Shown: positions 8,389 through 12,799 of the stretch, piece by piece | How positions within the stretch are numbered: the first letter of the stretch is position 1 | Layout of the letters: each line of letters begins with the position of its first letter | Translations under genes and position numbers: made by a program | Notes under the pieces: model-generated | What the model was told of the DNA's origin: nothing | What the model saw: the letters and a program-made list of their open reading frames with translations, nothing else | Database searches by the model: none | Origin: Asticcacaulis sp. | GTDB taxonomy: Bacteria; Pseudomonadota; Alphaproteobacteria; Caulobacterales; Caulobacteraceae | NCBI RefSeq assembly: GCF_020217185.1 | Contig: NZ_JAIWNX010000282.1 | Span: 1-17,349 of the forward strand | Length of the DNA stretch: 17,349 bases | Direction: 5' to 3'

Positions 8389-10353
<1,965 letters not shown>

Positions 10354-10378
10354 TCGGAAAGACGAAAAGGAAAAGGTC

Positions 10379-10398
10379 TTGGGGCCGGTTGGCCCCAA
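10379..10398. repeat. Hairpin after thiC
   Basis: TTGGGGCC-GGTT-GGCCCCAA is a perfect 8-bp stem 25 nt after the thiC stop. It has no T-tract and may help stabilise the mRNA 3' end ahead of the terminator. Confidence 0.4.
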
Positions 10399-10409
10399 AC
10401 CCCATAACC

Positions 10410-10439
10410 GGGCGCAGGTGACACCATCTGCGCCCTTTT
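10410..10439 (+). terminator. Terminator after thiC, also the left end of repeat copy 1
   Basis: GGGCGCAGGTG and CATCTGCGCCC form an 11-bp stem (one G-U pair) with an ACAC loop, followed by TTTT. Nearly the same hairpin recurs at 11701-11730 with the same downstream sequence, so it seems to belong to the repeat. Confidence 0.8.
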
Positions 10440-10451
10440 CTTGCGCGGCCC

Positions 10452-10721
10452 GAGCCCCCCTCCGTCATCTTCGCTACGCTCAGATGCCACCTCCCCCGGC
10501 ACGCCGGGGGAGTAGGTGTGCCGAAGGCGCCGTAGCTGTGGGAGGGTTACCTGCATCAGACACGCCGGGAGGAGTAGGTATGAGGAAGGGCTTGCCTTAA
10601 GCCTACTCCCCCAGTTTACTGGGGGAGGTGGACCGGCACCGACAGGTGCCGGGACGGTGGGGGAGGTGGACCGGCACCGACAGGTGCCGGGACGGTGGGG
10701 GGCCTTCGACAGATGACGCCT
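10452..10721. repeat. Palindromic intergenic repeat, copy 1
   Basis: This fills the gap between thiC and the DUF559 gene. In order it holds: GAGCCCCCCTCC; an imperfect hairpin around ATCTTCGCTACGCTCAGAT; a perfect 10-bp palindrome (CTCCCCCGGC 10491-10500 with GCCGGGGGAG 10503-10512); AGTAGG; about 66 bp not found in copy 3; GGGCTTGCCTTAAGCCTAC; CTCCCCCAG-TTTA-CTGGGGGAG; then a 38-bp unit with CCGGCACC-GACA-GGTGCCGG, present twice. It ends in CCTTCGACAGATGACGCCT, which includes the start codon of the next gene. Copy 3 (11743-11909) shares all of these blocks except the noted extra DNA. Confidence 0.85.
10621..10696. repeat. Perfect 38-bp tandem duplication
   Basis: Positions 10621-10658 and 10659-10696 are identical. 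Each unit starts GGGGGAGGTGG and carries an 8-bp hairpin (CCGGCACC/GGTGCCGG). Repeat copy 3 has the unit once (11847-11884), so the number varies. Confidence 0.9.
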
Positions 10722-11072
10722 AAATACAAGCTGGCCAGACGCATGCGTCGCGCCCTGACGCCACCGGAATTCATGCTGTGGGACCGCCTGAAAACGCGAC
10801 ATCCGGATGGCCCGATCTTTCGCCGACAATACGCCCTCGGCCCCTATGTGCTGGACATGTATTGCTACAGGGCGCGGCTGGCCATTGAGGTCGATGGCCA
10901 GCATCACGGCGTCGATGAGGTAGCGGCCCGTGATGCCCGGCGCGATGAATGGCTTCGTAATCAGGGCATCGAAACCTGCCGGATAAACGCAGCGGATATT
11001 TATCGCGATCCCGATGAGGTTGCCGATGGGGTTTACCGTCTGGCCGTAGAGCGTATGAACAGTGGGGGTTAG
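10713..11072 (+). CDS. DUF559 endonuclease-like protein (Vsr-like fold)
   Basis: The protein has 119 residues, the usual size for DUF559 proteins. The family hallmarks are in order: KLARRMRRALTPPEFMLWDRLK, FRRQYALGPYVLDMYC, LAIEVDGQHH, RDEWLRNQGIETCRI. Probable nuclease residues are E19, D48, E59 and D61, in line with the restriction-endonuclease-like/Vsr superfamily. The cellular role of DUF559 proteins is not settled. ATG 10713 is preferred; a GTG at 10695 would lie in repeat DNA. No clear SD is seen. Both the start codon context and the TAG stop lie in copies of the intergenic palindromic repeat, so the gene looks like cargo of, or partner to, that repeat. Confidence 0.85.
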   Translation: MTPKYKLARRMRRALTPPEFMLWDRLKTRHPDGPIFRRQYALGPYVLDMYCYRARLAIEVDGQHHGVDEVAARDARRDEWLRNQGIETCRINAADIYRDPDEVADGVYRLAVERMNSGG

Positions 11073-11183
11073 CCCCCCTCCGGCGCTGCGCGCCACCTCC
11101 CCCGGCACGCCGGGGGAGTAGGAATGAGGAAAGGGCTTGCCCGAATTCTACGCCCCTCGTTTTCTGCGAGACGATGGGGAGTA
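11071..11183. repeat. Palindromic intergenic repeat, copy 2 (divergent)
   Basis: It starts at the TAG stop of the DUF559 gene. It has AGCCCCCCTCC, a GGCGC-TGC-GCGCC hairpin in place of the ATCTTCGCT one, the same 10-bp palindrome (CTCCCCCGGC 11097-11106 with GCCGGGGGAG 11109-11118), AGTAGG and GGGCTTGCC, then a divergent CCCCTCGT...ACGATGGGG pair. The 38-bp block is absent. Confidence 0.8.
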
Positions 11184-11265
11184 AAAATTTCACTGGCCAA
11201 CGGGATCATTGCGCCCTTAAATCAGAACCGTCCGAAGGGCGGACGCTTTCTCAGGGGGATACTCA

Positions 11266-11673
11266 ATGCGTAAATCACTCAGCGCTGTGGCGCTCGGCCT
11301 TGGCATGGTCATGCTCACCCAGCCTGTGCTGGCGCAGAACAAGCCGACCTCACCGGCAACGGAGCAAAACGCATTGCCGGAGGATATTGAGGCAAAAATG
11401 AAGGCGCTTGTCACCCGCATGCAGGCGACGGCGAGCAAGCTGAAAGAAATTGCAGAAAAGATGAAGCCCGCCATGGAGGCCAACGACGGGGTAACTGTGT
11501 GCAATCTGACCAAGGAAATGTATCCGCACATGGTCGATCTGCGCGACGGCTTGAAAGAAATGGCGACCTACGCTCCGGCGGGGGCCGATAAGGACAAGAT
11601 GAACGCTCAGATCGAGCAGATGGATGTAAATCTCAAGTCTATGGCAGAGGCGATCAAGACGCCTTGTACCTGA
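11266..11673 (+). CDS. Small exported hypothetical protein
   Basis: Product of 135 residues, not recognised. The N-terminus is a signal peptide (RKSLSAVALGLGMVMLTQ) with a likely cut after V21-L-A23. The mature part is about 112 residues, mostly helical and rich in Lys, Met and Glu (AKMKALVTRMQATASKLKEI, AEKMKPAMEAN). Two Cys, C79 and C134, could pair in the periplasm. The SD AGGGGGA lies 7-8 nt before ATG. It is bracketed by repeat copies 2 and 3, and ends about 30 bp before the copy-3 terminator. A periplasmic role is inferred from the signal peptide; nothing in the sequence gives a function. Confidence 0.75.
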   Translation: MRKSLSAVALGLGMVMLTQPVLAQNKPTSPATEQNALPEDIEAKMKALVTRMQATASKLKEIAEKMKPAMEANDGVTVCNLTKEMYPHMVDLRDGLKEMATYAPAGADKDKMNAQIEQMDVNLKSMAEAIKTPCT

Positions 11674-11700
11674 TTACCGCCAAGAGCTAACTTCATGATC

Positions 11701-11731
11701 GGGCGCAGGTGGTACCATCTGCGCCTTTTTC
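11701..11731 (+). terminator. Terminator, left end of repeat copy 3
   Basis: GGCGCAGGTG-GTAC-CATCTGCGCC followed by TTTTT. It is nearly identical to the hairpin after thiC at 10410-10439, and both are followed by the same CCCGAGCCCCCCTCC block. Confidence 0.8.
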
Positions 11732-11742
11732 TTGTGTTGCCC

Positions 11743-11909
11743 GAGCCCCCCTCCGTCATCTTCGCTTGCGCTCAGATGCCACCTCCCCCGGCACGCCGGG
11801 GAAGTAGGGATAAGGGCTTGCCTTAAACCTACGCCCCCAGTTTACTGGGGGAGGTGGACCGGCACCGACAGGTGCCGGGACGGTGGGGGGCCTTCGACAG
11901 ATGACGCCT
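11743..11909. repeat. Palindromic intergenic repeat, copy 3
   Basis: It has the block order of copy 1 without its 66-bp extra piece and with one 38-bp unit (11847-11884). The large palindrome has one change (right arm GCCGGGGAAG). It ends in CCTTCGACAGATGACGCCT exactly as copy 1 does, but no DUF559 gene follows. The rest of the gap (11910-12037) shows no other repeat; TATAAG at 12000-12005 could be a -10 box without a clear -35. Confidence 0.85.
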
Positions 11910-12041
11910 GAGCCAGAGCCGGCCACAGGTGAGTGCCTTGCCCTTTCACATCTCTTGCCAGATCACGTACCCATCCGCATGGCTTTCGCCGCCACAGGGT
12001 ATAAGGCTCGCGCAGAGGCCATCAAAAGGAGGGCACGATGA
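11901..12041 (+). CDS. Possible 46-codon ORF starting in repeat copy 3
   Basis: The ATG in repeat copy 3, equivalent to the DUF559 start codon, opens a frame (MTPEPEPATGECLALSHLL...) that runs to a TGA overlapping the next gene's ATG as ATGA. The peptide is not DUF559-like after the first three residues. It may be chance in GC-rich DNA or a translationally coupled leader; no SD is evident. Confidence 0.2.
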   Translation: MTPEPEPATGECLALSHLLPDHVPIRMAFAATGYKARAEAIKRRAR

Positions 12042-12799
12042 AAGATCAGCCCAAAATCGCCACGCTCTATCGCATGGTCATGCCGACGCACACCTGTCCC
12101 TACGGCTTGAAGGCGTTACACCTGCTGAAATCCAAAGGCTTTACGGTCGAAGATCACTGGCTGAAAACCCGCGAAGAGACCGACGCCTTCAAAGCCCGGC
12201 ATGAGGTCAAAACCACACCGCAAACCTTTATCGGCAGCGAGCGCATCGGGGGTTATGACGATCTGCGGCGGTATTTCGGGCAGCGCGTTCCGGACCCCAA
12301 GACACCCACCTATACCCCGGTGATCGCCGTTTTTGCCCTGATGGCACTGCTGGCGCTGAGCGTGTCCTATGCGGTGTTTGGCACACCCTTTACCGGCCGG
12401 GCGGCGGAATGGTTTATCGCCTTCAGCATGGTGGCCCTGTCGATGCTGAAGCTCCAGAATGTCGAAACCTTCTCCACCATGTTCCTCAACTACGACCTGC
12501 TGGCCAAACGCTGGGTGCCCTATGGCTATATCTATCCCTTTGCCGAAGGCAGCGCGGGCCTTTTGATGGCCGCAGGGGCGCTTAGCTGGCTGTCCGTACC
12601 GGTGGCGCTGCTGATCGGCAGCATTGGGGCTGTGTCGGTTTTCAAGGCCGTCTATATAGACCGGCGCGAACTGAAATGCGCCTGCGTCGGCGGCGACAGT
12701 CATGTGCCGCTGGGCTTTGTCTCACTGACGGAGAATGTGATGATGGTCGCCATGGCTTTGTGGATGGGCTTTACGGCTTTGAACTCTGGGGCGATGTAA
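12038..12799 (+). CDS. Glutaredoxin-MauE/DoxX-type membrane fusion protein
   Basis: The protein has 253 residues. Residues 1-85 look like a glutaredoxin: ATLYRMVMPTHTCPYGLKAL with active-site C20-PYG, VKTTPQTFIGSERIGGYDDL containing the cis-Pro TTPQ and the GG motif. The second active-site Cys is Gly, so it is a monothiol form. Residues 90-253 hold four or five membrane segments resembling MauE/DoxX-like redox membrane proteins, with a C214-A-C216 pair (LKCACVGGDSHVPLG) between the last two. MauE-type proteins are linked to disulfide chemistry in the envelope. An attractive inference is electron transfer from the soluble thiol domain to the CxC site; the substrate is unknown. SD AAAGGAGGG precedes ATG. 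Confidence 0.8.
   Translation: MKDQPKIATLYRMVMPTHTCPYGLKALHLLKSKGFTVEDHWLKTREETDAFKARHEVKTTPQTFIGSERIGGYDDLRRYFGQRVPDPKTPTYTPVIAVFALMALLALSVSYAVFGTPFTGRAAEWFIAFSMVALSMLKLQNVETFSTMFLNYDLLAKRWVPYGYIYPFAEGSAGLLMAAGALSWLSVPVALLIGSIGAVSVFKAVYIDRRELKCACVGGDSHVPLGFVSLTENVMMVAMALWMGFTALNSGAM

Follow-up and report, generated by a model that had tools for sequence, protein, structure and literature searches.

A DUF559 nuclease gene between inverted palindromic repeats in Asticcacaulis: a candidate homing-type unit

The origin and spread of bacterial palindromic repeats outside the systems of GTAG repeats and RAYTs (tyrosine transposases associated with repetitive extragenic palindromic sequences, REPs) is a standing question. 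It is raised in a concrete form by a 17,349-nucleotide stretch of Asticcacaulis sp. DNA (NZ_JAIWNX010000282.1; the window hereafter), where an intact gene for a DUF559 (PF04480) nuclease of 119 aa, with an ATG start, lies at 10713-11072 on the forward strand among palindrome-rich repeats: does the nuclease have to do with the repeats around it? Our results revealed a firm association of DUF559 genes with such repeats. Moreover we hold it probable, at roughly 0.7, that the DUF559 gene forms one compact unit with the hairpin end on either side of it, in which a solitary homing-type nuclease would have its cognate inverted repeats as substrates, resembling a REPtron with a different enzyme. That DUF559 acts on its repeats is what we infer as the most economical reading, because the ends are specific, the gene is under selection, the unit is polymorphic and no other enzyme was found.

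Inverted repeats around DUF559 and GIY-YIG genes

The bracketing of a gene was scored by local alignment of the 300 bp upstream with the reverse complement of the 300 bp downstream, with a threshold of 18 for inverted ends. The genus set consists of 40 regions of up to 20 kb each, drawn by score from 111 DUF559 matches of the genus outside the genome of the window, places with open frames of more than 300 aa being mostly left out (the 25 genomes of the genus are labelled G, and loci L). In this set, inverted ends are found at 34 of the 40 DUF559 genes versus 2 of the 567 other open reading frames (ORFs) of the same regions; an earlier variant with 250 bp taken from the start and stop codons gives 30/40 versus 1/571. 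In a run on 30 loci with 350-bp flanks, 23 score at least 18. The bracketing recurs across alphaproteobacteria and some other phyla. Among named genomes, 64 of the 76 scored DUF559 loci are bracketed versus none of 170 ORFs (six of the loci, L113, L114, L117, L121, L129 and L130, are places of the genus set and all pass; without these the count is 58/70), and the bracketed loci include Caulobacter, Brevundimonas, Phenylobacterium, Sphingomonas, Sphingobium, Novosphingobium and Planctomycetota. For the family searches, whose loci are the best-scoring and not random ones, the wider samples give 18/25 in the class, 12/22 in the phylum and 18/20 in five multi-copy genomes; of eight plasmid loci five reach the threshold (L313, L314, L315, L317 and L319) and three stay below it (L316, L318 and L320). 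As a control, the ParE toxin genes, a small non-nuclease family, are bracketed in 0 of 29 cases. These counts are of scored loci; 4 of 80 named loci, 5 of 30 in the class, 4 of 26 in the phylum, 2 of 30 in each of two GIY-YIG samples and 1 of 30 for ParE gave no score. A generic scan for inverted pairs over the 40 regions of the genus, with direct repeats as the control, gave no excess (39 versus 43 at threshold 18; 9 of the 39 had two outer hairpins), and a stricter first scan gave 1 versus 1.

Among the regions listed, many have an outer hairpin, then GTGG or GGACC, an inner hairpin and AGGGG on one side, with the mirror image on the other. A CTCCC/CTTCCC hairpin stands on both flanks of 30 of the 40 genus and 53 of the 76 named DUF559 genes versus 0 of 535 random windows (counts of repeat classes are taken from all 76 named loci with flanks and the 40 of the genus, that is, 116 units). 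A single repeat family common to all DUF559 genes is rejected: where a genome has several sampled units, the left end pairs best with the right end of its own unit in 30 of 35 cases, with a median of 31.5 versus 10.0 for the ends of other units in the same genome. The similarity of the proteins goes with that of the ends, with a Mantel r of 0.21 over all units, above 500 of 500 permutations (units scoring at least 18 from a set of 105, without 15 of the 80 named rows, many of these low-scoring), and r 0.23 within the genus, where 2 of 2000 permutations are as high. With a 3.4-kb query that contains the unit of L084, at least 19-28 matches are found in each of G001, G003, G008, G012 and G013 and 1-5 in each of the other 20 genomes, and many of the matches among those listed are the end of about 70 bp, on both strands. 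Each of these five genomes carries a full or decayed copy of the L084 subfamily; as the five appear to form a single clade, common descent is a possible cause. The preliminary description, made from the window alone, had proposed a link of repeat and nuclease of the RAYT/REP type or the homing type. It withstood the two findings that could have spoken against it, namely repeats at hundreds of unrelated sites and relatives whose DUF559 genes have no such flanks; what did not stand is the tie to one repeat, as the units carry differing versions with matched ends.

GIY-YIG genes (L351-L410), meant as a negative control, failed as such and were replaced by ParE, because 14/28 and 13/28 in the two samples, or 27/56, are bracketed. 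CTCCC/CTTCCC hairpins on both flanks are seen at 0 of 56 GIY-YIG genes and in 0 of 109 off-gene windows of the same loci, and GTC-tagged hairpins on both flanks at 12 of 56 GIY-YIG genes versus 2/535 random windows, 0/109 off-gene windows and 1/116 DUF559 units. A first test for the CGTC motif was too lax (66 of 511 random windows) and was replaced by a stricter formula, CGTC-stem-loop-stem-CCA, which is found on both flanks of 2/56 GIY-YIG genes, 0/29 ParE genes and 7/116 DUF559 units (1/116 with an AT-first stem), and in 0/520 random windows; only part of the GIY-YIG genes thus has recognisable CGTC-REPs. In the sections of PMC3733652 drawn on here, CGTC repeats are described as not associated with transposase genes. 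As CGTC-REPs were published without a transposase and both nuclease families are bracketed, DUF559 and GIY-YIG become candidates to fill this gap. It is possible, at odds a little short of even, that solitary homing-fold nucleases are the dedicated enzymes of two palindromic repeat classes, DUF559 (I-Bth0305I-like) of the CTCCC double hairpins and GIY-YIG of classes including the CGTC-REPs; the repeats would then be miniature homing elements and a second, HUH-independent origin of REPs. In the PMC literature, which most subscription papers lie outside, DUF559 is named in 14 papers and no paper was found that has GIY-YIG together with repetitive extragenic palindromic; the main text of the 2006 GIY-YIG survey (PMC1564403) makes no mention of palindromes, inverted repeats, or repetitive or flanked sequence.

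A nuclease family with its own repeats in most sampled cases offers a candidate enzyme for a repeat class, open to purification and to assays with synthetic hairpins, and the recurrence around relatives suggests that such nucleases are the long-missing partners which spread or maintain repeats. If true, many DUF559 genes and solitary GIY-YIG genes that are so far unexplained would gain a function, and a new type of small genome-shaping element would be described.

The nuclease and its hairpin ends in the window

The protein of the window belongs to DUF559, matching PF04480 with E 2.2e-23 and 82.6 bits against a curated cut-off of 20.6. Twelve residues are invariant in an alignment of 32 proteins, among them E19, D48, E59, D61 and H65, which we take to be the active-site residues. 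For the AlphaFold model (predicted local distance difference test, pLDDT, 92), the nearest solved folds are 3hrl, a putative endonuclease-like protein, and 3r3p, the catalytic domain of the homing endonuclease I-Bth0305I (template modelling, TM, score 0.66/0.79); the match to Vsr (1vsr) is weaker (TM 0.61/0.55, E 0.4), and PvuRts1I is among the structural matches too. Sequence profiles likewise match 3hrl (E 8e-32), PvuRts1I (E 1e-4) and 3r3p (E 9e-4). By its predicted fold and its conserved acidic and histidine residues, DUF559 qualifies as a nuclease of the PD-(D/E)XK / EDxHD type. Orthologous DUF559 genes are under purifying selection: the ratio of nonsynonymous to synonymous substitution rates (dN/dS) is 0.05-0.21 in seven pairs with both flanks orthologous, three of which are among the same three loci. 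Of the other pairs in the twelve computed, L105/L111 with only one orthologous flank gives 0.10, three have saturated dS (one including L109), and L104/L109 was dropped as an in-frame stop in L109 had shifted the codon alignment.

The genome of the window is metagenome-assembled (MAG), with 3.44 Mb in 320 contigs. The gene lies in a repeat array 3' of an ORF at 8446-10353, presumably thiC. The array opens with an A repeat and an inverted B that holds the 38-bp unit in tandem; then come the DUF559 gene, another A, a B that has decayed, a small secreted-looking ORF and a further A-B pair. The forward A copies start at 10453, 11071 and 11744, with the consensus AGCCCCCCTCCG...CACCTCCCCCGGCACGCCGGGG(G/A)AGTAGG, so that three palindrome-rich copies with the nuclease gene between the first and the second, as in the preliminary description, are indeed what the window has. 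The left end of the unit is a B copy on the reverse strand (10602-10702), where an outer hairpin at 10606-10627 is followed by an inner hairpin within the tandem duplication of the 38-bp unit (10624-10661 and 10662-10699); on the other strand this unit reads CGTC-stem-loop-stem-TCCA. The right end is the A copy at 11071-11122 on the forward strand, with an inner hairpin and then an outer one at 11097-11118. Compared with shuffles, the left end folds with z -4.66 (10602-10703) and the right end with z -2.41. Both ends of the gene lie in repeat sequence, which had been claimed as well: the start codon lies inside CCTTCGACAGATGACGCCT (10703-10721, forward), which recurs at 11891-11909 and has a counterpart before the downstream gene in G010, and the stop codon TAG is shared with the A copy at 11071.

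The exact pattern CTCCCC-N10-GGGGAG has only 10 sites in the whole genome, far from the hundreds of unrelated sites that had been considered; 3 of the 10 cluster in some 0.6 kb of the window, and 0 sites are found in the same genome for the reversed pattern used as a control, so the local cluster of hairpins is not due to chance. A known RNA element as the identity of the repeats is rejected, as positions 10300-12050 have no Rfam match up to E 1. The second DUF559 gene of the same genome (L001) has palindromic repeats of another version on both sides, with an inverted score of 23.0 and a direct score of 76.0.

The remaining copies of the array lie on both sides of the unit. The upstream A copy (10453-10516, forward; z -2.56) makes with the B copy the gene-less pair that is found at the same site in the sister genomes G019 and G005. 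On the 3' side, comparison of the repeat family gives a decayed B-like copy (11131-11171, reverse), and further on are the third A copy (11744-11808, forward), which as a single strand folds no better than shuffles (z -0.59), and a second B copy (11812-11890, reverse) with a single 38-bp unit near 11850. An ORF of 135 aa at 11266-11673 on the forward strand, with a start that by eye is like a signal peptide, is inside the same repeats and is kept with DUF559 in G023; it has no match in Pfam or NCBIfam. Moreover a larger block with a terminator-like hairpin is duplicated around DUF559 and this ORF (10398-10475 and 11689-11766, 87% identical).

Orthologous sites with and without the unit

A comparison of orthologous sites, suggested in the preliminary description, revealed that units and gene-less pairs come and go, as seen at the thiC site, at a second site of the genus and between paaD and paaZ. 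At the thiC site, the A-B pair of G019 and G005 encloses no DUF559 gene and G010 has one A copy with a decayed partner, G009 has a different DUF559 (40% identical), and G023 has the unit of the window with an in-frame stop. At the second site, G008, G012 and G001 have the unit, G013 has it with an internal deletion, and G003 lacks it. Gene-less pairs of about 120-200 bp are present in one species and absent in its sister at several orthologous sites, and in one case a single outer hairpin is left. On a plasmid of Deinococcus psychrotolerans, a unit with ends of about 70 bp lies between paaD and paaZ, and in Deinococcus sp. QL22 this gap is 83 bp without the unit; on a plasmid of Sphingomonas parapaucimobilis, a DUF559 unit (L313:1192-1587) lies inside an operon, between two transhydrogenase subunit genes. 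At two sites (L083/L075 and L104/L109) the whole unit is inverted end-to-end while the flanks are collinear.

The gap 3' of thiC is a hot spot (10353-12038 of the window; L103, L271, L272, L273, L274 and L275), holding differing DUF559 genes, gene-less pairs or unrelated inserts among Asticcacaulis genomes.

Readings of the unit and known systems

We propose that the DUF559 nuclease would recognise or cut the hairpins cognate to it, or neighbouring sites, and that host repair of the break may then copy, invert, shorten or remove the element, so that the unit would behave as a homing element with the repeats as its ends and the gene-less pairs of ends would be its non-autonomous versions. Repair-driven homing as the specific route is more tentative, and we would put it somewhat below an even chance.

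Several observations weigh against a unit of this kind. The flanks of the DUF559 gene in the window (L002) have an inverted score of 18.5, just above the threshold and one of the weaker inverted matches, and a direct-repeat score of 31.5. Inverted ends are missing in 6/40 loci of the genus, 12/76 named loci and 10/22 of the phylum sample. Repeats are also present in two genomes of the genus that lack a DUF559 match (G004 and G010), and G006 and G024 have DUF559 and none of the exact repeat pattern used. The correlation of proteins and ends rests on close pairs; within the genus the similarity of ends is flat below about 70% protein identity, and the co-variation of subfamily and repeat at large distance is weak. 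Plain recombination between inverted repeats could explain both inversions. No target-site duplication is readable at the compared insertions, whose sites have diverged. Near-identical DUF559 copies at several unrelated sites of one genome, as after a recent burst, were not seen: the closest within-genome pair at two places among 38 genus pairs is L083/L084 in G008, with the same end type and a protein identity of only 0.79, so this duplication is old at best, and the highest identity in five other genomes is 0.59 (20 genes). Finally, PD-(D/E)XK nucleases are not known to join DNA themselves, and insertion would need another activity.

Four other explanations have been weighed. The one that survives best, though we think it rather unlikely, is pure homing into repeats that were there before, where the nuclease would cut gene-less pairs and the gene would be inserted by repair. 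The repeats would serve as homology arms for this and would not be moved by the nuclease. The thiC site fits this, with a gene-less pair in G019 and G005 and DUF559 inside the array in the window and G023, and so do the joining of the start and stop of the gene to repeat sequence and the fold of a homing endonuclease; however, sites with a gene-less pair in one species can be without it in a sister species, so the repeats too are gained or lost, and the Deinococcus and Sphingomonas units sit in operon gaps.

It is improbable that DUF559 is only a passenger, that is, a repair-type (Vsr-like) gene tolerating or captured between repeats that another enzyme or replication slippage moves. In the parts of PMC12907096 drawn on here, VsrA of Caulobacter crescentus, a DUF559 protein, is described as a putative nuclease of Vsr-like mismatch repair with a functional link to a cytosine methyltransferase, needed for the SOS response in cells without the methyltransferase, and the main text of that paper has no mention of palindromes; a passenger would also suit the repeats of G004 and G010. 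Against this, the bracketing is specific to DUF559 genes when compared with the other ORFs and ParE, and the ends are unit-specific, while a cargo gene would need no matching ends of its own. Duplication or deletion mediated by the repeats, with the window a duplicated block of terminator and REP around two genes and no mobile unit at all, is less probable again. The 87% identical blocks reach beyond the repeats, one block of this kind precedes the downstream gene in G010, and the flanks in the window match better as direct repeats than as inverted ones; this may explain the extra copies of the window, but not the bracketing of DUF559 at other sites in other genomes. That ordinary REPs are spread by a tyrosine (HUH) transposase encoded elsewhere in the genome is very improbable, for although RAYT systems typically have REP-like hairpins arranged in inverted pairs in the portions of PMC3733652 used here, the HUH transposase domain PF01797 has a match in only 4 of the 25 genus genomes and was not found in the other 21, among them the genome of the window (a MAG, 95.8% complete) and two that are rich in repeats, G011 and G017, so that RAYTs are unlikely as a general driver in the genus and are rejected for most of it.

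Among known systems, the proposed DUF559 unit resembles in layout the REPtron (RAYT/TnpA-REP with GTAG REPs and their REPINs or BIMEs, bacterial interspersed mosaic elements). Both have a small enzyme gene between inverted palindromic repeats (34/40 here), gene-less inverted pairs of such repeats at other places, and enzyme and repeats that vary together, which is weakly shown for DUF559. However, the enzyme is a PD-(D/E)XK-type nuclease instead of an HUH (Y1) tyrosine transposase, and the ends are double hairpins with C/G-rich outer stems, in which no GTAG tag, not sought systematically, has been established; the unit is therefore REPtron-like in layout, but without the HUH enzyme that defines a REPtron it is not classed as one. 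The CGTC-REPs, as described in the passages of PMC3733652 cited here, are alphaproteobacterial palindromes mostly in inverted pairs too, and some DUF559 ends, the 38-bp unit of the window among them, have an inner hairpin that reads CGTC-stem-loop-stem-CCA, but DUF559 ends usually add an outer CTCCC hairpin, and only 7/116 units have the strict formula on both flanks. Of the folds with a known role in mobility, I-Bth0305I (3r3p) is the closest; the 3r3p structure is a catalytic domain taken from a mobile-intron protein, while DUF559 is a catalytic domain alone in an intergenic unit. VsrA is of the same domain family, but has been studied as a putative mismatch-repair nuclease. With pairs of insertion sequences and miniature inverted-repeat transposable elements, the unit has in common the terminal inverted repeats, the gene-bearing and gene-less versions and the presence/absence polymorphism, but it has no known transposase, no target duplication that could be read and no recent multicopy burst of the gene.

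Some further observations were made along the way. In L101 (contig C52 of G023), a DUF559 gene stands in tandem with a close copy, repeats included, with a direct score of 135.5. At L042:1483-2556, a DUF559 domain and a ribD-like deaminase lie in a single open frame, joined by translated repeat-like sequence, and L076, L094 and L095, which have flanks in common with L042, are similar in appearance. Near 18231 of L104, in the comparison of L104 with L109, another short inverted-repeat element of 146 bp with GTGGGTCCACAGATTACACAG ends is present in G006 and missing in G009.

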